Assembly (NCBI GenBank): GCA_037481935.1
Contig: JBBFKQ010000001.1
Span: forward strand, 80,741 to 144,740
Origin: Aquificaceae bacterium
GTDB lineage: Bacteria; Aquificota; Aquificia; Aquificales; Aquificaceae
Direction: 5' to 3'
Length of the DNA stretch: 64,000 nucleotides
Part shown: piece by piece, positions 52,566-64,000 of the stretch
Position numbering within the stretch: the first letter of the stretch is position 1
Layout: each line of letters opens with the position of its first letter
Notes under the pieces: generated by a model
What the model was told of the DNA's origin: nothing
Database searches by the model: none
The model's input: only the letters and a program-made list of their open reading frames with translations
Made by a program: the position numbers and the translations under genes

Positions 52566-54404
52566 ATGGACTACAGACCGCAAGAGATAGAAGCCAAATG
52601 GCAGAAGATATGGGAAGACATGAAGACCTTTGCATCAAAAGAGGAAGGAAACAAATCCTACGTGCTTGAGATGTTTCCCTATCCATCAGGCAGGATTCAC
52701 ATGGGGCATGTGAGAAATTACACCATTGGGGATGCTATTGCACGCTTTCTGAGGTTCAGGGGATATTCTGTCCTCCATCCCATGGGCTGGGATGCCTTTG
52801 GACTACCTGCAGAGAACGCCGCCATAAAGCATGGCTTTCATCCTGCAAACTGGACATACCAGAACATAGCCTACATGAAAAAGCAGCTCAAAAGCCTTGG
52901 CTTTTCCTACGACTGGAGCAGGGAAATCGCCACCTGCAGTCCTGAATATTATCGCTGGAACCAGTGGCTCTTTTTGAAGTTTTACGAGCATGGGCTCGCC
53001 TACAGAAAGTCTGCAGAGGTAAACTGGTGTCCCAACGATGAGACGGTGCTTGCTAACGAGCAGGTAGTTGATGGAAGGTGCTGGAGGTGTGGCACTCCCA
53101 TAGTGAGAAGAGAGGTGCCCTCCTGGTATCTGAAGATTACCGCCTATGCGGAGAGGCTTTTAGAGGACCTAAAAGAGCTTGAGGGTAGGTGGCCCGAACG
53201 GGTGATAGCCCAGCAGAGGAACTGGATAGGAAGGTCTGAAGGAGCAGTGCTCAAGTTTTTCGTGGAAGACATCCCCATAGAGGTCTTTACCACAAGACCA
53301 GATACGGTTTTTGGTGCAACCTTTGTAGTGCTGGCTCCCGAACATCCTCTGACCCTTGAGCTGGCAAAGAAGTCTGAAGACTACCAGAGGGTGAGAGCCT
53401 TTGTGGAAAGGATGAAGCAGAAGTCCACCAGGGAGAGGGGAATTGAAGAAGAAAAGGAAGGTGTGCCACTGGGCGTGTATGCAACAAACCCGGCCACAGG
53501 GGAGAAAATACCCGTCTGGACCGCCAACTACGTGCTATACGAATACGGCACTGGCGCCATAATGTGTGTGCCAGCCCACGACCAGAGGGACTACGAGTTT
53601 GCGGTCAAATACGGACTACCAATCAGGCACGTGATAAAGCCCAGGGAAGGAGACCTCCCGGAAGGCAGAGCCTACGAAGAACCGGGAGTGCTCATAAACT
53701 CAGGACAGTTTACGGGCATGGACTCTCTGGACGCAAAGAAAGCCATCACCCAGTGGCTAAAAGAGAGGGGTCTTGGAGAATTCAGGATTACCTACAGGCT
53801 CAGAGACTGGAACATATCTCGTCAGAGATACTGGGGCACTCCCATACCCATAGTCTACTGCGAAAACTGTGGAACTGTGCCTGTGCCAGAAGACCAGCTT
53901 CCGGTGCTTCTGCCAGAAAGGGTGGAGATAACAGGACATGGGAACCCTCTTGAGAAGGTGCCAGAGTTTGTCAATACCATCTGCCCGAAGTGCGGAAGAC
54001 CTGCAAGGAGAGAAACGGACACCATGGACACCTTCTTTGACTCAAGCTGGTATTTCCTCAGGTTCTGCGACCCAGTAAATTCAGAAAAGCCCTTCGCACC
54101 GGAGAAGGCCGAGTTCTGGATGCCTGTAGACCTCTACATTGGTGGTATAGAGCATGCGGTCCTTCACCTTCTTTACGCACGCTTTTTCCAGAAGTTTCTG
54201 TATGACCTTGGACTGGTAAAGGACAAAGAGCCTTTTCTTAGACTGGTCACTCAGGGCATGGTGCTGAAAAGGTGGGTGAGCGTGGAGAGGTTTCTTGAAC
54301 ATCTGAGCAGAAAATACGGCGTCGATTCCGCTGAAGACATTGAACTGGAAGAGCTTGTAAAACTCATAAAGATTGACATGGGTAAGGGTAACTTTCAGAG
54401 ATGA
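52566..54404 (+). CDS. leuS: Leucyl-tRNA synthetase alpha subunit (split LeuRS)
   Basis: This is the N-terminal half of class I LeuRS. It has the HIGH-type motif [13 protein letters not shown] (about 40-52), [17 protein letters not shown], the zinc region [23 protein letters not shown] (residues beyond 150) and the editing domain with [13 protein letters not shown] and [15 protein letters not shown]. The chain ends at 612 residues after VTQGMVLK and an LeuRS-insertion-like tail. The KMSKS loop and the anticodon domain are absent, and the next gene is unrelated and on the other strand. This matches the alpha subunit of the split Aquifex enzyme; the beta subunit must be elsewhere. Confidence 0.95.
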
Positions 54405-55348
54405 AGCCCTGTGTATCCCTCCCTTTTAACAGAAGCCACAAGGAGAACAATTGAAGCAAAAAGGGCACATAGCTGAAAAGACCAGAAGCTCATGAACTTC
54501 AGATAAGCAAAAGGCGAACCCCCATACAGGAGTAGCAGACTTGAAAAATTATCCAGAAAGGAGAAAAGAAAAACAAAAAGGCCAAGCGTAATACTTTTTT
54601 TCCTGTCAACACCCGCAAAAGGTAGCAGATGAATCAGAGCAAGAGAGTAAAGGGCCATAGCCAGAATATGGGGGTAGAAAACCTTGAAAACACCCTCAAA
54701 GCTTTTGGGCTTTAGAAAAAGCTCCGGATTGCCCAAGAAGTAATCTCTTATTCCCTGAACTCCAAAACCCATCTTTGCGTGAAAGTTCACAAAGTTAGAA
54801 AGAATAAAAAAAATGGAAAAAAAGGAAAAAAGCAGGCTAAGGACTTTTAACATAGAGACCTTTGGAGGTTTCATGTTACCAAAAGATAGCTTCCATCCTG
54901 TGTATATCAGCATTATTGCTAGTAGAATTTGATAGAGCACAAAAAAGAAAAGCTTTAACCATACAACCCAGAAAGCATTCAGTAGTAATATTAAGAAGTC
55001 TACAGAAAGGTAAGAAAGAGCAGAAATACTGACCAGCAACACCAGAAGTCTTTTAAAAGCGCTGTTTGAATTAAAAAGGGAAAAGACAGAAGAAAGCGTC
55101 AGTATTATAAAGCCATGAAGAAACACACCCACATGGAAGTCTTCAGAAATCTGAGCTAGAGAAACCCTTTCAGGAAACTCAGGGTCCATGAAGAAGTATT
55201 TCACCAGGCTGTTGTAAGAAAAGCCATATTTGGAGTAAAAGTGAAGCCAGGAAGCCAGCCAGAAAAGAGTTGTAAAAAGGAGAAAAAAGATAACCGCATA
55301 GTATAGAGGTTTATTCCTTCTTATGTCTGCGGATACAAAAAATCTCAC
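54395..55348 (-). CDS. Multi-helix membrane protein with a two-fold internal repeat
   Basis: The 317-residue protein has about eight hydrophobic segments and is not a recognised family. Two halves resemble each other: [21 protein letters not shown] (near 37-57) matches [21 protein letters not shown] (near 188-208), each followed by a helix carrying His ([25 protein letters not shown]). The conserved His, Gly and Asn/Asp-Pro-Glu positions suggest haem b or other cofactor binding in the membrane. It is coupled by a 4-bp overlap to the FMN-binding protein, so a membrane electron-transfer unit is plausible. Confidence 0.7.
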
Positions 55349-55887
55349 CTCTGCACTCCAAAAAGCACCTGCCAGAGGGCAAGCACCTTTCTGGCGTTGT
55401 CCGTTATGGCTCTGGCGGTCAGGGTTGCCCCAGTTATGTTGGGTATGTCCCTTCTAAGCCTTACGGGGTCTTTTGAGAGCTGTTTGCCTGCAAAGAGCCT
55501 GAGCCAGTTGTCTTCTGGCATGTATTCAAGAGGCTCATAAAAGGCGAGCACTTCCACCACATCAAGCTTGCCGTCGGGAGTAATCGTGTAGAGCACCACT
55601 TCGGGGTGGGTTCTGACCCTGTGCATGTCTACATAGCCGTAGGCTATTATCTGCCCGCCTTTTCTGACTATATACCAGGAGGCAAGCCTTGACTCCATCT
55701 TTGCGCCCGATATCTTCTGAACCTCCTCCACCTGCTCTCTGGTGAGAGTTATGTTTCTGACCTCTATCTGGGAGCCGGGGTATATCTGAGACAGTGCCTG
55801 CTCCGGTCTCCTGAACTCCTTTGCCCATAAAAGGTTTAAGAATAAGAGCACATGGATAAAAAAAAGCACAGAACTCACCAAAGCCAT
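55345..55887 (-). CDS. Periplasmic FMN-binding domain protein (RnfG/NqrC-like)
   Basis: An N-terminal hydrophobic segment (about 3-21) exports or anchors the 180-residue protein. The C-terminal half is an FMN_bind domain with IPNITGATLTARAITD (about 149-164), where the Thr of SGATxT-type motifs receives covalent FMN from ApbE. The rest (ASWYIVRKGGQIIAYGYV, EVLAFYEPLEYMPE) is also typical. It lies between a porin and a membrane protein and probably shuttles electrons across the membrane. apbE is not in the window. Confidence 0.85.
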   Translation of the reverse strand: MALVSSVLFFIHVLLFLNLLWAKEFRRPEQALSQIYPGSQIEVRNITLTREQVEEVQKISGAKMESRLASWYIVRKGGQIIAYGYVDMHRVRTHPEVVLYTITPDGKLDVVEVLAFYEPLEYMPEDNWLRLFAGKQLSKDPVRLRRDIPNITGATLTARAITDNARKVLALWQVLFGVQR

Positions 55888-55956: not shown

Positions 55957-55982
55957 TAAAAGCCCCTCCCCGCAGGGAGGGC
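55957..55982 (-). terminator. Rho-independent terminator after the porin gene
   Basis: On the minus strand GCCCTCCC-TGC-GGGGAGGGGC forms a GC-rich stem with one bulge, followed by TTTTAG. It lies 20 nt beyond the stop of the porin gene and 70 nt before the FMN-binding gene. Confidence 0.7.
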
Positions 55983-56001: not shown

Positions 56002-57402
56002 TCAGAACATAAAGCCGAGGGTGAGCCTGTATTCGTTCTCATCCTTTCTTGGAGAGCTGTAGTTGAGCCTTGCATAGTCTGCCTTTATGGCAACAAGTGG
56101 GTGGGGCTTGTAGGAGAGTCCGAGGTTGTAGACCTTCAGCTTATGACCGCTGGGCTTGAGGAAACCAGAGGGCACTTTGCTGTGGGTGTCAAAGTCCTCG
56201 TATATGCCAAAGACGTAGAGCTCCTGATTCTCTGGCCCAAATAGCCTGAAAAGGTCGTAGGCGACCTGCACATAAAAGCCCTTCTGCTCCTCTGGCATTA
56301 TGTTGTTTCTGTTGGCACCGGTGTTGGGGTTTTGTATGTTGTTTCCAAAGAGATCTCTGGACATCTTCAGGGCATCATCAGTCTTTACTAAGGCCCCCAC
56401 GAACCTTATGTCCCATCCCGCATGTTGCCACCAGAGGTGAGGTGAAAACATGGTCAGCGAGCCAACCTTTGAACCTCTTCTCAGACCCAGCTGAGAGTCT
56501 GAGCCACCCTTAGACTGAACATCTGCATAGACAAAGGAACCTCCCACTCTTAGGTTGAGGGGAAGGTTTATGTCAACTCTTCCAGTAAATCCAAGCCTGT
56601 CCGCAACCGCCCTTGCCCCCCTCTGTCTGACGGTTTTTAGGGGCTCGGTTACATCGTAGTCGCCACCACCTTTCAGCATAAGTCCGTTTATCACATAAAA
56701 CCTGTAGTCTACTGGACCAACGGCTCCGTAAGCTCCAAGACCCATCTCTTCCCAGGTAGACATCATTATTCTTCTCTCAAAGAAAGGCCTTTCTGCGGAG
56801 GGGAATGTAGGAGACTCATGCACTTCGTTCACTATACCCACGGGCATGAGAAGAAGTCCTCCCCTGACCCCGAACTCAGGTCTGAACTGATAGTCCAGAT
56901 ATGCAAGCTCTGCCTTGAAGTATCCTCCACCAGTGCCATGTCCTGCCGAGGTTGATGCATGCTCCAGCTCAAGTTCAGAATTAAACTTCAGCTTCTCATC
57001 AAAGGCATAACCAAGGTAGAGGATTATCCTCTGCATGTTGGCTATGGACTTGGCTCCACCCCTTGCGTTCACATCGTTATGTCTGAAAACGAGCTCACCA
57101 TAGCCACCTATGGAGACACCCCTTGGGTTGAAGTGCACCTTGGACGCCGCAGGACCAAGACCAGAGTAGGACTTAATCTCAAGTTTTGGCATGGCAATAT
57201 CAAGCCTGAGCTGTCTTATCTCCTCCTTGAGGGCTTCAGTTTCCTTCTTTGTCTCTTCTGCCTTCTTCTGTTCTTCTTTGAGCTTCTGAACTTCCTGCTG
57301 GAGCATTCTTATCTGCTCCTCAAGCTGACGTATCCTGTCCTCCGCCGGCTGGGCAAAGACTGTGGTTGATAGTAGGGCAGTGGCTAAAAGAACTCGCTTC
57401 AT
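56002..57402 (-). CDS. Coiled-coil outer-membrane porin
   Basis: A signal peptide (about 1-17, ending VFA) is followed by a coiled coil (about 22-70, heptads of L, E, K) like the trimerising N-terminus of some porins, then about 390 residues of alternating strands ending in the aromatic LTLGFMF. GGYGELVFRHND and GGLLLMPVGIVNEVHESPTF resemble the porin families of phosphate- or carboxylate-selective type found in Aquificales. The substrate is unknown. It has its own strong promoter, an AAGGAGGTC ribosome-binding site and a terminator, so it is probably abundant and monocistronic. Confidence 0.82.
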   Translation of the reverse strand: MKRVLLATALLSTTVFAQPAEDRIRQLEEQIRMLQQEVQKLKEEQKKAEETKKETEALKEEIRQLRLDIAMPKLEIKSYSGLGPAASKVHFNPRGVSIGGYGELVFRHNDVNARGGAKSIANMQRIILYLGYAFDEKLKFNSELELEHASTSAGHGTGGGYFKAELAYLDYQFRPEFGVRGGLLLMPVGIVNEVHESPTFPSAERPFFERRIMMSTWEEMGLGAYGAVGPVDYRFYVINGLMLKGGGDYDVTEPLKTVRQRGARAVADRLGFTGRVDINLPLNLRVGGSFVYADVQSKGGSDSQLGLRRGSKVGSLTMFSPHLWWQHAGWDIRFVGALVKTDDALKMSRDLFGNNIQNPNTGANRNNIMPEEQKGFYVQVAYDLFRLFGPENQELYVFGIYEDFDTHSKVPSGFLKPSGHKLKVYNLGLSYKPHPLVAIKADYARLNYSSPRKDENEYRLTLGFMF

Positions 57403-57444: not shown

Positions 57445-57473
57445 AGTATACAGAAAGTGAAACCCACTGTCAA
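57445..57473 (-). promoter_or_regulatory. Promoter of the porin gene
   Basis: On the minus strand TTGACA (57473-57468), a 17-bp spacer and TATACT (57450-57445) form one of the best promoters in the window. The leader of about 35 nt includes AAGGAGG before the ATG at 57402. Confidence 0.8.
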
Positions 57474-57505: not shown

Positions 57506-60500
57506 CTATGCATAGCTTCTTTTTCTCAAACCTTCAAACAAGCCTGCCAGATATGGTATCAAAAGAATCACGCTCAGAAGCCAGAAACCAGAGAGAGTAT
57601 GGATCTGTCCCACATCATGGATAGTGCTGACCCTCTGCAGCAGTGCGCCCCTTACAGATGGCTCGTAGCTACCGGCTCCCGCACGGGAAGAAGGCACGAC
57701 CGGTCTGCCAGTGCCGTAGCCTGCCATAGTGATGCCCTGGGATAGCCTTTCCTCTATTTGCTTAGAGGCTGAGGAGTTTTCTCTGAGCCACTTTTTTGTG
57801 CCCAAGTTGTATTTGTCCTGGAGATAGACCTCTCTGAATTCTTTCCAGATGGGGTCTCTTACCACCTGAGGTGCCACCACCTGCCAGCCGTAGAGGTTGT
57901 TAAGGGTGTTTAAAAGCTCGTTGACGCCCGAGTAGCCTTCTTTCATAAGGGCTTTTACGTATTCTGGGTTGAGGTATCGGGCTCTTACTTCCTGAAGGAG
58001 GAACTCCTCTGCGGTCTGCACCTTTGCGGTGCTTCTAAGGTTGGCTATAAGCACCTCTGGCTTTCTACCTGAGAGCACCTCCACTGTCAGAGCAAGACCC
58101 CCAAGATACTGGAAGGGGTCGTCGGTGGTGAGCATGCCATATAGGTTGGAGCTTCTTGAGAGAAGCACCGCATCCGTATCCTTGAGGTTTTCCTCAAAAA
58201 GCCCATGCACCTTCTGCGAGTGAAGTCCCTCGTCGTAGGCAAAGCCCATCCTGTGCAGGAAAAGCCCCGAAAGTTTTTTCTTATCCTTTGTCTGGAAGAC
58301 CGCATCATCCAGCCCAGAGCCGTAAGCTCCGCTCTCGTTGGAAAAGCTCCTTATAGTGGCGAGCCTCTGAGCCTGCTCATGAGGGTAGCCCTTTTTAAGA
58401 AGCATCGCCATCAGTTTTTGTGTGTTCTGCCTTACGAAGTTCTCCTCTTCCTCAAGCTCTGCCACAAGCCTTACTGCCTGATTTATCAGGTTCATTAGGT
58501 TTGGAAAGTGGTCCCTGTATAGCCCCGTGGCAGATACCACCACGTCTATGCGCGGACGCCCGAGTTCTTTCTTAGGTATTATCTCAAGCCCTACCACCCT
58601 TCCACCATCATCCCACCTTGGTCTTACACCAAGGAGGTAAAGAACCTGAGCTTCCACCACACCAAGGTGTCTCATGGTTTCCACAGACCACAGAGTAAAG
58701 GCAACCTTCTGAGGATATCTTCCGTGCCTTTGGTGGTAGTCTATGAGCCACTGGTCTGTGATTTCCACCGCAGTTTTCCATGCCTGAGGTGTTGGCACAC
58801 GCTGTGGGTCAAAGCCGTAGAGGTTTCTACCCGTAGGCAGGCTGTCGGGGTTTTTTATGGGGTCTCCACCAAAAGAGGCAGGTATGTATCTGCCCTCAAG
58901 GGCTGAAAAGAGAGATACAAGCTCCACGCCTGCGTCAAGCCTTCTGTAGAGGTCTATAACTGTCTCACAGTATGCGTCTGGAGAGCCTTCCATGCATTGA
59001 AGCACCTTTGCAAAGGCTTTGGAGCTCTTTATCTTGTCTACGGGTTGAGCCATAAACTCCTCATAGGGTTCCTTTTCCCACATTTTTATCCATTCCCTGC
59101 CCAGCATCTGCAGTATGGTGAGGGCAAGGAGTTCTGCGTCCTTTGTCTTGCCAAAGGTGTGAAGCCCCAGAGGCACATTCTGAGTGGCTATTTCGTGTAT
59201 GTGGTTGTGGAGTTTTTCAGAGAAGCTCTCAAAATCTTTCAGTATCTGGGTGGTGTTTTTATAGCCCAGGTCTCTGGCTATGTTTGCCCTCATGGCTTTT
59301 TGAGCTATCTCCCGCCTTATGGTCTCTTTCAGTCTTCCCTCTGACTGGGCTTCCTTGTGAAGTAGCTGGTGAAGTTCTTCCAGCTCTCCGTAGGTGCCAG
59401 AGGGTGCAAAGGCTGGGGTCTGATAAGAGATGATAAGGGCTCTGCCCCTCCTTCGGGCGTTGAGGGCTTCTCCCACGTTGTCTACGATGTAAGGGTATAT
59501 GACGGGCTTTGTGCCAAGGGTGAGGTAGGGGTAATCCCACAGGTCAAGGCCTCTCTCCTTGCCGGGCGTCCACTCCTGAGTGCCGTGGGTGCCAAAGTGC
59601 AATATTGCATGGCTGTTTTTCTGCAGGTAAAGGTAGAAGGCAAGATAGTAGTGAGAGGGTGGAATCTTTGTGCTGTGGTATATCTCTTTACTCCTTAGGT
59701 AATCCATGCCTCTGGGTGCAAGGGGCAGGAGCAAAAAGTTGCCCGATTTAAGCACAGGAATGGTGAAACATCCCTTCTTAAGGTATGGGTCCCTCTCCGG
59801 TCTTCCCCAGTAGCTCTCTATGTCCTTCCTGACCTTTTCTGGAAGGCTCTCATACCAGTTCAAGTATTCCTCAAGGCTCAGACAATCAAGAAGGTCTGTA
59901 CTCACGGGCTTTGAATAGTAAAGCCCTATCATTTGGGTGAGCTTTGACTGCAGGTCTCTCTCTGAATAGGTTTCAACCCTGTAGCCCCTGTCCTTTGCGG
60001 TTTTCAGAAGTAGTTCAAGGCTTTTTATGACGTTCAGGTTGGAGGCAAGGATGTTCCTCTCTCCGGGCGGGTAGTTGTAGTAGACTATAGCTATTTTTTT
60101 CTGGGAGTTTTCAAGGCTCTGGAGGTCTCTCCAGGCTTTAGCTCTCTTTACCAGATTTTCCACCATATGGAGCAATGGCTCTTTGAGGGGTTGGTCTGCA
60201 CCCACCACTGTGGGGTCGATAGCCCCCATATACTCTGGCAGTGTGAAGTGGAAGGGTATTGAGGTTACTGAAATGCCCTGGGGGTTCTTTTTCCAGTCTT
60301 CTTTTCTGCCCCTGTAGGTGATACCCTGAAGCACTGGAAGAGCCAGTTCTTCAAAGGCTTTCTTTTCTTCTTCGTATGCAAAATACATGAGCCTGAGGTT
60401 AACAACCACGGAAGGGAGTGGTCTTCCCTCTAAGATGAGTTTGTGAAGATGCCTTCTGAGCCCCTCAGTCTCTGGATAGTAGAAGCCCACCGCAGGCAGG

Positions 60501-61063
60501 CCCTCTCTTTCTGACTGAACTATGATGCTGTCTACAATGGCGGTGTTCTCCGCCACCAGGTCTGAGCGGTGAAAAAGCACGAGCAGTGGTTTTTCAAAGT
60601 CCTGAGGCAGATTTTCCATCACGCCCCTTGCAGGATGGTAAAAACCCACCGCAGGAAGCTCTCTGGGTGGCCCTGCAGGCAGACCTGCAAAAGCTTTGAA
60701 CATGTTTTTAAAGTTTTCCCTGCCACCTGAACTGTAGTAGGGCAGGAGCTTGCTCAGAACCTGCGGGTCTCCTGCGGTTGGAGGGCTCAGAAACACCAAC
60801 CTTTTGCCAGTTAGCTTTTCCTGAAGGGCTTTTCTTATCTCCTCAGGAGGCGTATCCACAAGGTAGATGTCTGCCTCTGGCAATTGCAGGCTTTTGAGGT
60901 CTTCCGCCCTCAGGTATACGCCCTGCACTTCAAGACCCACCTCCTGTGCACTCTGCAGGAGAAGGTGGAGTTTTCTGGGAGGGTTTGGAAAGCTCACCAC
61001 GAGCACTAACTTCTGGGCAAAGCCAAAGCTCAGTAGAACCAGTAGTAGAAAAAGGAGCCTCAT
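57506..61063 (-). CDS. CobN/HmuS-like chelatase, exported and membrane-anchored
   Basis: The 1185-residue protein is a CobN/BchH-family large chelatase subunit. The conserved core includes HFGTHGTQEWTPGKERGLDL (about 490-509), the IYPYIVDNVGEALNARRRG block, ASFGGDPIKNPDSLPTGRN and VVVSATGLYRDHFPNLM. Unlike cytoplasmic CobN it begins with a signal peptide (RLLFLLLVLLSFGFAQ) and ends with one membrane helix (LSGFWLLSVILLIPYLAGLF) and a basic tail, so the body should lie in the periplasm. It is the last gene of a TonB operon and is coupled to a DUF2149 gene. Such CobN relatives occur in hmu haem-uptake loci of Bacteroidetes (HmuS). Metal insertion or removal on an imported tetrapyrrole is the likely role; the substrate is not known. 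Confidence 0.87.
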   Translation of the reverse strand: MRLLFLLLVLLSFGFAQKLVLVVSFPNPPRKLHLLLQSAQEVGLEVQGVYLRAEDLKSLQLPEADIYLVDTPPEEIRKALQEKLTGKRLVFLSPPTAGDPQVLSKLLPYYSSGGRENFKNMFKAFAGLPAGPPRELPAVGFYHPARGVMENLPQDFEKPLLVLFHRSDLVAENTAIVDSIIVQSEREGLPAVGFYYPETEGLRRHLHKLILEGRPLPSVVVNLRLMYFAYEEEKKAFEELALPVLQGITYRGRKEDWKKNPQGISVTSIPFHFTLPEYMGAIDPTVVGADQPLKEPLLHMVENLVKRAKAWRDLQSLENSQKKIAIVYYNYPPGERNILASNLNVIKSLELLLKTAKDRGYRVETYSERDLQSKLTQMIGLYYSKPVSTDLLDCLSLEEYLNWYESLPEKVRKDIESYWGRPERDPYLKKGCFTIPVLKSGNFLLLPLAPRGMDYLRSKEIYHSTKIPPSHYYLAFYLYLQKNSHAILHFGTHGTQEWTPGKERGLDLWDYPYLTLGTKPVIYPYIVDNVGEALNARRRGRALIISYQTPAFAPSGTYGELEELHQLLHKEAQSEGRLKETIRREIAQKAMRANIARDLGYKNTTQILKDFESFSEKLHNHIHEIATQNVPLGLHTFGKTKDAELLALTILQMLGREWIKMWEKEPYEEFMAQPVDKIKSSKAFAKVLQCMEGSPDAYCETVIDLYRRLDAGVELVSLFSALEGRYIPASFGGDPIKNPDSLPTGRNLYGFDPQRVPTPQAWKTAVEITDQWLIDYHQRHGRYPQKVAFTLWSVETMRHLGVVEAQVLYLLGVRPRWDDGGRVVGLEIIPKKELGRPRIDVVVSATGLYRDHFPNLMNLINQAVRLVAELEEEENFVRQNTQKLMAMLLKKGYPHEQAQRLATIRSFSNESGAYGSGLDDAVFQTKDKKKLSGLFLHRMGFAYDEGLHSQKVHGLFEENLKDTDAVLLSRSSNLYGMLTTDDPFQYLGGLALTVEVLSGRKPEVLIANLRSTAKVQTAEEFLLQEVRARYLNPEYVKALMKEGYSGVNELLNTLNNLYGWQVVAPQVVRDPIWKEFREVYLQDKYNLGTKKWLRENSSASKQIEERLSQGITMAGYGTGRPVVPSSRAGAGSYEPSVRGALLQRVSTIHDVGQIHTLSGFWLLSVILLIPYLAGLFEGLRKRSYA

Positions 61064-61065
61064 GG

Positions 61066-61398
61066 CTACTCCTCCGGCACGTAAACCAGCGTTCCATCGG
61101 GCAGGCGGTAAGTGGCACCCACTCTTACACCCCTTCCTTCTCCTATCTGCTGGCTCTTTACATACCTCTCCAGCTTCTGCCCTTTCTTTATGACCAGCTC
61201 CATGTTTTCCCTGCCGGGGTTTTTCACAAGCACATAATCTTCCTTTGTGAAGGGGTTGAAGGGACTGTTTACCAGCACCAGAAGAAGGGCGATAACGACC
61301 GCCAGAAAGGCGTCTATCATGTTTACCACCGAGAGCATGGGGTCTGTTTCTTCCTCAAGCCTCTCCAGTTCCTGAAGAAGGATATCTTTGAGGTTCAT
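61066..61398 (-). CDS. DUF2149-like membrane protein linked to CobN
   Basis: This 110-residue protein has one membrane segment (about 24-44) after NMIDAF and a C-terminal domain with QIGEGRGVRVGATYRLPDGTLVYVPE, which I recognise as the DUF2149 pattern. The layout (short cytoplasmic N-terminus, helix with a polar Asp, small periplasmic domain) resembles ExbD. DUF2149, an ExbB-like protein and CobN commonly occur together. It ends 2 nt before the cobN ATG and overlaps the ExbB-like gene by 4 bp. Confidence 0.82.
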   Translation of the reverse strand: MNLKDILLQELERLEEETDPMLSVVNMIDAFLAVVIALLLVLVNSPFNPFTKEDYVLVKNPGRENMELVIKKGQKLERYVKSQQIGEGRGVRVGATYRLPDGTLVYVPEE

Positions 61399-61829
61399 CT
61401 CTTCTCCTCCAGTCTCTTTATGTCCTCTAAAAGCCAGCGTCTTCGCACTGTGGAGGTGTAGTAGGTTATGCTGGCAGATATAAGAGAGAGGCTCACTGCC
61501 CCAAAGGCAAAAGAGAGCTTCCTGCCAAGCTCCTGCGTGTTGCCCTCCGCAAGGGCAAGAAGGGCCGGTCCAAGAGGTATAAGTGTTCCCACAAGCCCCA
61601 GAAGAGGGGCAATCCTTGAGACAAGCCTTGAAGGCTCCATAGCCTTCAGTCCTCTCAGGTAGAGCTCCTCTGGGGGGAGTTGTGTTGGATGATTTTTCCC
61701 CATTGCTCTCTTTATGGCCCTTGCAGTAAAGAGCCCAAGGTCAAAGAGCGAATACAGAAACATGAGCCCTATCGATGCGTAAACAGGGTATTGAAAAAGC
61801 ATTACAACCTGATAGAAAACCTTCTCCAT
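61395..61829 (-). CDS. Second MotA/TolQ/ExbB proton-channel protein
   Basis: This 144-residue protein has three hydrophobic segments and the family signature in APLLGLVGTLIPLGPALLAL (near 88-107) and FAFGAVSLSLISASITYY. It is distinct from exbB at 62990 and is paired with the DUF2149 gene (4-bp overlap), as if the two formed a separate proton-driven unit for the CobN-like protein. The start shares bases with the tonB stop. Confidence 0.87.
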   Translation of the reverse strand: MEKVFYQVVMLFQYPVYASIGLMFLYSLFDLGLFTARAIKRAMGKNHPTQLPPEELYLRGLKAMEPSRLVSRIAPLLGLVGTLIPLGPALLALAEGNTQELGRKLSFAFGAVSLSLISASITYYTSTVRRRWLLEDIKRLEEKR

Positions 61830-62635
61830 CAGTTATCCTCCTTGAGAGAAAACTGCACGGGCAAAAGCAGGTTAACTTTTCTTTCTGCAACCGGAAAGTT
61901 TCTGTGTGCCTTCTGGACTGCTCTAATTACCGCCTCGTCCAGAACTCGGTAGCCAGAGCTCTCCCTTAACTCAAGCCCGCATAGATTCCTGCCTTCAAGG
62001 CATATAAGCACCACCACCCTCCCCTCCCATCCCCTTAGCCTTGCCAGAGGTGGATACTCAAGATGGCTTTTCACAACAGACCTCACCACTCCAAAGTTCT
62101 GCCTGTGATAGAGCAGGTTGTAGTCTCCCTCTCCCACCCTCCCTGAACCCGATGGCTCGGCTCCTACCTCAGCTCCACCGCTCCCCACCTTACCATGGGC
62201 AACTGCACCCACCTGCGTCTCCTGTCTAGTGCTCTTATGGCCTTCTTCAGAGCTGGCGGATTTCTGTGGGGTCTTCTCATGGGCTTCTGCAGGTGTTGAC
62301 TGCTCCTTTGCTTCAGCCTTGCTGAGGAGTTCCTCGGATGTGGGTGTTTTTTGAAGTTTTTCTTCTACCTGCTGTTGAAAACTATCGGCTTTAGCCGGTG
62401 TGTGTCCGCCTGTATCTCCCTTCGCCTTCTGACTTTGCCCTCTATGGGTTATGTTTCTTACCTCCTCGCCCAGGTTGTCATATTCAGGATGTTTAATATT
62501 GGGTGGAGTGTAATAAAGCTCCAGCTCTACCTGAGTTATCTGTGACGCGTCAAACCTCAGCATGAAGAAGATGAGGACAAAAGCAAGGCTGTTAAAGAAA
62601 AGGGAAAGTTGCAGAGCCCTTGTATCCAACCTCAT
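61829..62635 (-). CDS. tonB: TonB energy transducer
   Basis: The 268-residue protein has one N-terminal membrane helix (about 8-28), a long linker rich in Glu, Lys, Gly and Ser (about 60-180), and the C-terminal TonB domain with YPPLARLRGWEGRVVVLICL (about 192-211) and the end RKVNLLLPVQFSLKE. It transmits the proton-motive force to the outer-membrane receptor encoded upstream. The linker lacks classical proline repeats. It overlaps exbD by 4 bp. Confidence 0.9.
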   Translation of the reverse strand: MRLDTRALQLSLFFNSLAFVLIFFMLRFDASQITQVELELYYTPPNIKHPEYDNLGEEVRNITHRGQSQKAKGDTGGHTPAKADSFQQQVEEKLQKTPTSEELLSKAEAKEQSTPAEAHEKTPQKSASSEEGHKSTRQETQVGAVAHGKVGSGGAEVGAEPSGSGRVGEGDYNLLYHRQNFGVVRSVVKSHLEYPPLARLRGWEGRVVVLICLEGRNLCGLELRESSGYRVLDEAVIRAVQKAHRNFPVAERKVNLLLPVQFSLKEDN

Positions 62636-63009
62636 GTCCTTCTCACCTGCAGGGAAACCCTCTGAAAGTTCATGCCCTTTAGAAGGTCAAGAAGGCTCAC
62701 AAGAGACTGCACGGAAGCATCCCTGTCCGCCCCCACCACTATGTGCGTGTTCCTGTCGTAGTTTGAGAGCCTGTTCAGGAGAGTTTCTTTACTTATCCTT
62801 TCCCCCTTCCAGTATAAGTTTCCGTGCCTGTCCACATAGAGCTCAACGGGGCTCTCCACTGACCGCTTTTGATGCTCTGCAGAGGGCAGGTTCACAGGCA
62901 AAGACCCCACCGCCACAAAGCTGGCACCTATGAGGGCAATGGTCAAAAGCACCAGCATCACATCCACCAGAGGAATCACATTCATGTAGTCAATCTCCCT
63001 TTCTTGCAT
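62632..63009 (-). CDS. exbD: ExbD biopolymer transport protein
   Basis: This 125-residue protein has one membrane helix with the proton-carrying Asp in NVIPLVDVMLVLLTIALIGA (Asp16) and a periplasmic domain ending GMNFQRVSLQVRRT. It partners ExbB. It overlaps exbB by 20 bp and tonB by 4 bp. Confidence 0.93.
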   Translation of the reverse strand: MQEREIDYMNVIPLVDVMLVLLTIALIGASFVAVGSLPVNLPSAEHQKRSVESPVELYVDRHGNLYWKGERISKETLLNRLSNYDRNTHIVVGADRDASVQSLVSLLDLLKGMNFQRVSLQVRRT

Positions 63010-63409
63010 GCTTTTCCTCCCACTCGTAAAGCAGTTCCCTTGCCCTTCTTACAAGGTAGTTGTATAAAACCGTTGCCGGCACTGCCACCAGAAGCCCCAG
63101 CGCAGTGGCTTTCAGAGCCAGAGCAAGCCCCGTCATTATCTTGAGCGTGTCTCCCATACCCTCCTTTCCCATTATGTAGAAGGTTTGCATGATGCCCAGC
63201 ACCGTGCCCATAAGCCCCACATAAGGAGCGTTGGATGCTACCGACGCAAGCACATAAAGACCCCTTGTAAGCTCTTTTTCCAGCCTTGCCCTTGTAGAAA
63301 AGTCTGACAGGTTTATCCTTTTGTAGAAAAAGAGCCTCTCAAAAAACACATACAGCCCCACAAGGCTCATAAGCCCCATAATACCCATAAACACATACTC
63401 CAGCCACAT
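62990..63409 (-). CDS. exbB: ExbB/TolQ-family proton channel
   Basis: This 139-residue minimal ExbB has three membrane segments and the signature APYVGLMGTVLGIMQTF (about 60-76) and GLALALKATALGLLVAVPATVLYN (about 92-115). It lacks the long cytoplasmic insertions of E. coli ExbB. Its ATG shares bases with the receptor stop codon (TGATG). Confidence 0.93.
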   Translation of the reverse strand: MWLEYVFMGIMGLMSLVGLYVFFERLFFYKRINLSDFSTRARLEKELTRGLYVLASVASNAPYVGLMGTVLGIMQTFYIMGKEGMGDTLKIMTGLALALKATALGLLVAVPATVLYNYLVRRARELLYEWEEKHARKGD

Positions 63410-64000
63410 CAGAATGTACCCCTCAGGCCCGCATAGTAGAAACTTCCCAGTATGGGGAGGTCTCTGTCCTTTTTATTCCCCAGGTTATCCACACCACCAT
63501 AAAGCTCAAGACCCTTCCAGAGCTTCTGGCTTGCAGACAGGTGCAGCAGGGTAAAGTCCTTCTCCTGAGTGGGCGTCCAGAGCAGGTCAGAGGTATGCTC
63601 AACGGCGAGGGATATGCGTGTTTTTTCTAATGGCCTGACGCTTACCTCTCCTACAAGCCTGTGTCTTGGTCTCTGAAGAAGCCTCTTGTCCTCTTCTTCA
63701 TCTCTTGCCTCCAGGTAGGTATAGGACAACCTTCCGCCGAGCCAGTTTAAAGGAGCAAAAAAGCCCGAAAGCTCCACTCCCTTGAATTCAGCCTTTCCTA
63801 CGTTCCTGTAAGTAAAGACCTGAGCGTTAGGCGGCGGAGATGGCACGTTCAGGGTTAATGGAGGGCAACCGGGTGTGTTTACAAGGCAAGTTTCTATGAG
63901 GTCCTTGGCCCTTGTGTAGAAGAGGTTTACCTTTAATGTTGCCTGTCTGCCAAAGTCCTTTTCCAGCCCAAGGTCTACACCATCGGTTTTCTCGCTCTTG
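63409..64000 (-). CDS. TonB-dependent outer-membrane receptor (C-terminal part, 5-prime end beyond window)
   Basis: The frame is open to the window edge and gives the last 196 residues of a receptor barrel. It begins SEKTDGVDLGLEKDF, the pattern of the late strands of BtuB/FepA-type barrels, continues with alternating strands such as FKGVELSGFFAPL and GGRLSYTYLEARDEEE, and ends in YAGLRGTF with the terminal Phe required for barrel assembly. A loop with two Cys (ETCLVNTPGCPP) may form a disulfide. The plug, TonB box, signal peptide and any riboswitch lie outside. It heads the exbB-exbD-tonB-cobN operon in view. Confidence 0.9.
   Translation of the reverse strand, partial: KSEKTDGVDLGLEKDFGRQATLKVNLFYTRAKDLIETCLVNTPGCPPLTLNVPSPPPNAQVFTYRNVGKAEFKGVELSGFFAPLNWLGGRLSYTYLEARDEEEDKRLLQRPRHRLVGEVSVRPLEKTRISLAVEHTSDLLWTPTQEKDFTLLHLSASQKLWKGLELYGGVDNLGNKKDRDLPILGSFYYAGLRGTF

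Follow-up and report, generated by a model that had tools for sequence, protein, structure and literature searches.

An FMN-binding protein and its eight-helix membrane partner as a probable part of a flavin-based trans-envelope electron-transfer module in Aquificota

The genome of a hot-spring Aquificaceae bacterium contains a gene for an exported FMN_bind protein, immediately followed by one for a multi-helix membrane protein, next to an operon coding for a CobN-like chelatase. This arrangement raises the question of what the two proteins do together and whether they serve the chelatase that happens to be their neighbor. An earlier interpretation made from the DNA alone (henceforth the sequence-only reading) had suggested that they might form a transmembrane electron-transfer unit, which could, for instance, reduce the metal of an imported chelate before its removal. 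We analyzed the locus within a stretch of 64,000 nucleotides (the window), and followed its genes through 136 Aquificota genomes, many of which are draft MAGs, with 64 Aquificaceae genomes as the family set.

Organization of the gene pair

The features of the pair and of the genes and elements around it are listed here with the evidence for each.

54395..55348 (-), membrane protein with eight transmembrane helices, 317 aa, GTG start (ORF, predicted structure, conservation)
55345..55348 (-), start/stop overlap GTGA, 4 bp (sequence)
55345..55887 (-), exported FMN_bind protein of the RnfG/NqrC type, 180 aa (Pfam PF04205, profile match to RnfG in the PDB, conservation)
55417..55449 (-), predicted covalent-FMN motif DIPNITGATLT with T157 as the predicted FMN-bearing residue (sequence, conservation)
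55964..55981 (-), terminator-like hairpin in the porin/FMN_bind intergenic region, a possible attenuator (consensus match only)
56002..57402 (-), outer-membrane porin, 466 aa, with an N-terminal coiled coil and a C-terminal Phe (conserved partner of the pair)
57445..57473 (-), sigma-70-like promoter TTGACA-17-TATACT, 11/12, in the cobN/porin intergenic region (consensus match only)

The GTGA overlap combines the GTG start of the membrane-protein gene (55348-55346) with the TGA stop of the FMN-protein gene (55347-55345), an arrangement that points to translational coupling of the two genes. The pair is present in 47-48 of the 64 Aquificaceae genomes. This pairing is well above chance, as genomes with both genes nearly always have them side by side. 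On its other side the membrane-protein gene converges with a leuS ORF (52566-54404(+)), the two overlapping by 10 bp. Its product, of 612 aa only, appears to be the alpha part of a split leucyl-tRNA synthetase, a form of the enzyme that is known in Aquifex.

The FMN_bind protein and its predicted flavinylation

Searches against Pfam recovered the FMN_bind domain (PF04205) in the FMN protein with 23.7 bits, above the curated cut-off of 22, and a profile of the protein matched the solved RnfG chains in the PDB with E=3e-7. Its N-terminus is signal-like, as judged by eye. An alignment of 23 homologs from about ten genera has G153, T155 and T157 as invariant residues, with D147, T152 and A154 conserved in at least 90% of the sequences. 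The segment T-G-A-T-L-T, part of the conserved stretch DIPNxTGATLT, satisfies the flavinylation motif [ST]GA[ST]x[ST]. Of 33 rows of FMN proteins 29 have the motif, whereas no other protein of the module does. The window genome has one apbE (122.9 bits), which lies away from the pair, and the pair's FMN_bind protein is the only one that this genome encodes; ApbE would attach FMN to T157 in the periplasm. The apbE reading frame overlaps with that of an exported protein of 210 aa, for which Pfam has no match (L001:2283-2915(-)).

The FMN_bind fold and the motif are shared with RnfG and NqrC. However, the protein scores 15.9 bits against an rnfG cut-off of 102, it is the single FMN_bind protein of the genome, and its partner is not NqrB or RnfD. 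An RNF/NQR or NQR/RNF-like complex was rejected, since the membrane partner has no homology to NqrB/RnfD and matches no family of Pfam or NCBIfam at E<=1.

A duplicated four-helix unit with invariant histidines

The AlphaFold model of the membrane protein is of high confidence (pLDDT 90.5, pTM 0.87) and consists of eight long helices. Searches of the fused protein against Pfam and NCBIfam gave no family match, even at E=1, and the half-genes described below likewise gave no match in these databases to MsrQ, PepSY, NapH, DsbD or other classes. A sequence search of the PDB with the membrane protein and with the diheme cytochrome introduced below returned nothing usable. With Foldseek no match to the membrane protein was obtained below E=0.2, the best row being heme A synthase at E=0.2, and the rows returned by VIA-align were generic helical bundles.

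The protein is found in a fused form in Aquificaceae and in Sulfurihydrogenibium-like genomes, and in Hydrogenothermaceae as two half-proteins of about 150-160 aa, encoded by neighboring genes in tandem (L113-L116, L121, L123, L124). Profiles of the two half-genes align with each other over 127 columns (E=6e-13). This alignment, together with the existence of the split form, indicates that the fused protein corresponds to a joined tandem pair and is an internal duplication of a four-helix unit. The split and fused gene forms document how a tandem four-helix pair relates to one eight-helix protein.

Across 45 fused and split forms the only residues that never change are H72, G206, H227, H240 and K284, of which the histidines and the lysine are encoded as follows.

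55135-55133 (-), invariant H72 (45-form alignment)
54670-54668 (-), invariant H227 (45-form alignment)
54631-54629 (-), invariant H240 (45-form alignment)
54499-54497 (-), invariant K284 (45-form alignment)

H72 and H227 occupy equivalent positions in the two halves and H240 has no counterpart; H36 and H78 are not conserved. The predicted helices and the positive-inside rule, with a modest charge bias, suggest that both termini are cytoplasmic. In this orientation H72, H227 and K284 would lie near the periplasmic ends of their helices, with H240 thirteen residues deeper. Three invariant histidines on two equivalent helices could accommodate one or two b-type hemes. We infer such heme binding with caution, because the cytochromes known to be associated with flavinylation have four central heme-ligand histidines, as in the DUF4405-like proteins, whereas the membrane protein has three and no DUF4405 match. 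It has no cytoplasmic domain able to bind NAD(P)H, which would make the quinone pool its likelier partner.

These results confirm what the sequence-only reading observed and uphold its interpretation in part. Both ORFs at the coordinates given, their translational coupling (a 4-bp overlap), the periplasmic FMN_bind protein with a covalent-FMN motif and the multi-helix nature of the membrane protein were all recovered. Its impression of a transmembrane electron-transfer unit fits the invariant FMN motif, the three invariant histidines of the membrane partner and the apbE gene for which it had advised a search. Its repeated histidine positions reduce to the single pair H72/H227.

Recurrent partners in Aquificota

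Although the gene contexts of the pair vary between genera, a few families recur as neighbors, namely the porin, ApbE and a third protein, about 550 aa long, whose N-terminus is lipobox-like and which contains two CxxCH motifs (the diheme cytochrome), with a small DUF2325 protein added in some genomes. The membrane protein is encoded in 69 of the 136 Aquificota genomes, as compared with 67 for the porin and 71 for ApbE. The membrane protein occurs together with the porin in 61 genomes (Fisher 1e-22) and with ApbE in 64 (Fisher 3e-24), both values ignoring relatedness. Co-loss within genera is a better argument than these p values: all three genes are missing from the five genomes of one genus (g5), and in two others (g18 and g20) several near-complete genomes have none of them, whereas related genomes carry the complete trio. 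Decay side by side is seen in genome G002, where the membrane-protein gene has accumulated many stops and the adjoining apbE is fragmented (C142:5757-7187).

The diheme cytochrome was found in 24 genomes, every one of which also has the membrane protein (24/24), and it thereby accompanies the pair in about a third of cases; it is absent from the window genome. The genes stand in tandem in the order apbE, porin, cytochrome, FMN_bind and membrane protein in G001 (L043), which we take to be Aquifex aeolicus VF5, and the same set occurs in other orders in the sister family. Where the set is split its parts are still grouped, with porin, cytochrome and apbE in one place and the FMN_bind and membrane-protein genes elsewhere (L073/L051, L074/L044), and in several genera (g3, g10, g11) the porin is on a different contig or at a different locus. 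The porin of the window falls just under the cut-off of Pfam Porin_O_P. A second barrel-like protein, with a weak OprB score, is encoded next to the module in Persephonella-like genomes (L115:5483-6541, L113:9068-10129, L114:9309-10391). The model of the diheme cytochrome (pLDDT 53) is too poor to interpret. A GTDB-wide scan with cytochrome patterns, which are narrow, returned 13 loci, all from Aquificota. Restriction of this cytochrome to Aquificota was rejected, as relatives with 30% identity are encoded on Pseudoalteromonas plasmids; one such relative adjoins the alkaline phosphatase PhoX, with no FMN_bind or ApbE gene nearby (L140:6875-8548).

Related clusters on proteobacterial plasmids

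Searches started separately with the FMN protein and with the porin reached identical plasmid clusters in Ideonella and Methylocystis, in which a barrel protein is followed by an FMN-binding protein, an FAD:protein FMN transferase and a small hypothetical protein. A Bradyrhizobium cluster was likewise reached both with the Ideonella FMN protein and with the window porin as queries, and Sphingomonas and Novosphingobium have a matching gene order with a different barrel family. As in Aquificota, the plasmid clusters combine a homologous porin (2e-75 to the porin profile), a homologous FMN_bind protein, ApbE and a protein in the position of the membrane component, here a small one with four helices. 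Unlike the Aquificota protein, to which it has no detectable similarity, this small 4TM protein contains H-x17-H and H-x13-H pairs in its hydrophobic segments, as read from the sequences. It gives weak, sub-threshold scores to DUF4405/b561, and DUF4405 proteins bind heme b (PMC11334425). Homology between the two membrane proteins was rejected, as profiles of neither half showed similarity, and we claim positional equivalence only; a search for the Aquificota membrane protein on plasmids found no match. As far as we found, the porin-FMN_bind-ApbE-4TM plasmid clusters have not been named as a system. Pseudoalteromonas donghaensis encodes a distant porin relative beside imelysin and di-heme oxidoreductase genes, which suggests a link to iron (L150:4785-9021).

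Alternative functions of the pair

The operon upstream of the porin (57506-63999(-)) codes for a CobN-like protein with a signal peptide and a C-terminal TM segment, DUF2149, ExbB-type, TonB, ExbD and ExbB proteins and a TonB-dependent receptor, and in its gene content resembles an hmu-like heme/tetrapyrrole locus, a type that is rare in Aquificaceae. Direct adjacency in the window and in genome G036, and the need of the HmuS de-chelatase for a reductant, are in line with the proposal that the unit feeds electrons to this CobN-like (HmuS-like) chelatase and so reduces the metal of an imported tetrapyrrole. We nevertheless regard this as very improbable. CobN was found in 3 of the 64 Aquificaceae genomes (two full copies and one fragment on another contig) as against 47-48 for the pair, with no association between them (Fisher p=0.57), and on these numbers a partnership with the chelatase was rejected as a general explanation. 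Genomes without cobN still have the gene order leuS - membrane protein - FMN_bind - porin, chelatase and pair are neighbors only in the window's species and in G036, and the predicted promoter between cobN and porin, a consensus match only, would set the porin unit apart from the chelatase operon. Of the two genes that the sequence-only reading had named as possible companions, the pair tracks the porin and not CobN; its conserved association is with the porin, ApbE and the diheme cytochrome, and it does not co-occur with the TonB/CobN operon, which is largely the outcome that the reading had named as its refutation. The operon shares the CobN-like, DUF2149, ExbB/ExbD, TonB and receptor genes with the loci of HmuS/CobN-family de-chelatases, but it adjoins the FMN/membrane-protein unit only by position, in two species, and is no part of it. 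Recruitment of the unit for the chelatase is conceivable in the two genomes that have both loci, because the homologous HmuS of the Bacteroidota hmu heme locus is an NADH-dependent heme de-chelatase whose electron route is unknown (PMC12583661).

A role in iron assimilation, in which the FMN protein would reduce Fe(III) imported through the porin and FeoB would import the resulting Fe(II), is an unlikely explanation, if one with several observations in its favor. Two Sulfurihydrogenibium-like genomes have feoA as a neighbor of the module (L118:423-2773, where feoB is present as well, and L126:3920-4150), copper oxidases and a ferritin-like gene accompany the Methylocystis plasmid cluster, and surveys link flavinylation with iron transporters (PMC8238504). 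Of the 69 genomes with the membrane protein, 4 also encode FeoB no more than 10 kb away from it, versus 0.86 expected, a weak excess (P about 0.01, uncorrected). However, FeoB is present in 114 of the 136 Aquificota genomes with or without the module, mostly far from it, and simple iron reduction needs no diheme cytochrome. Less likely again is that the pair is a general periplasmic feeder of electrons, for example to repair or detoxifying peroxidase-type enzymes, with the porin linked to it only via shared envelope regulation. The separate location of the porin in three genera and a cytochrome c peroxidase gene upstream of the Ideonella cluster would agree with such a role. Against it, the porin is lost together with the pair, its adjacency to the FMN_bind gene recurs in Proteobacteria by independent queries, and where it is parted from that gene it adjoins those for ApbE and the cytochrome (L073, L074).

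A flavin-based trans-envelope module

We propose, as the explanation that is probably correct, that the pair constitutes the inner-membrane and periplasmic part of a flavin-based trans-envelope electron-transfer module of Aquificota, which is generally unrelated to the chelatase. The two genes form an inseparable pair, and the co-occurrence, co-localization and motif data point to a dedicated, flavinylated envelope redox unit with the porin and ApbE. Within this module the eight-helix protein would exchange electrons between the (mena)quinone pool and the periplasmic FMN, most likely via heme b on its invariant histidines. Where the diheme cytochrome is present the FMN may give electrons to it, or take them from it, at the outer membrane; in genomes without it the partner of the FMN may be a small periplasmic or porin-imported redox partner. 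Because the cytochrome is absent from the window genome, the chain across the outer membrane would there be incomplete or end elsewhere. Electrons could leave the cell by this path, with Fe(III) as one possible acceptor, or enter it from a donor, and the porin, if an ordinary one, could serve as a passive channel.

Relation to known systems and implications

Five to six classes of membrane partner are distinguished in two large surveys of flavinylated extracytosolic systems, those of Meheust et al. (2021, PMC8238504) and Huang et al. (2024, PMC11334425). With these ApbE-flavinylated systems the Aquificota module shares an FMN_bind protein with the [ST]GA[ST]xT motif, ApbE, a dedicated membrane partner and the periplasmic location. 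It differs from them in that its membrane partner matches no NapH, MsrQ, PepSY, DsbD, NQR/RNF-like or DUF4405 protein by sequence, and in that a porin and a diheme cytochrome belong to the set; the main texts of the two surveys mention neither porins nor Aquific*. A porin gene beside that of a predicted lipidated c-type cytochrome, in a trans-envelope arrangement, is reminiscent of the Pcc and MtrCAB conduits. In those systems a multiheme c-type cytochrome spans the porin, whereas here the cytochrome has two CxxCH motifs in place of a multiheme chain and is missing from most genomes, that of the window included, and a covalent FMN would act as the periplasmic carrier.

The membrane protein looks like a further class of membrane partner of flavinylated systems, widespread in two Aquificota families, with defined invariant residues and a candidate outer-membrane partner, and a flavin/porin trans-envelope electron route of this kind appears to be largely undescribed. 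More tentatively, and as a possibility that we consider doubtful at present, early-branching chemolithotrophs such as Aquifex, Hydrogenobacter and Persephonella may have a conduit of new design, in which a duplicated four-helix membrane cytochrome, one covalent periplasmic flavin and a porin/diheme lipoprotein would together permit extracellular electron exchange without multiheme cytochromes. If the porin/diheme part does carry electrons, these four- or five-gene cassettes would provide Aquificota bacteria with a flavin-based route of extracellular electron exchange.
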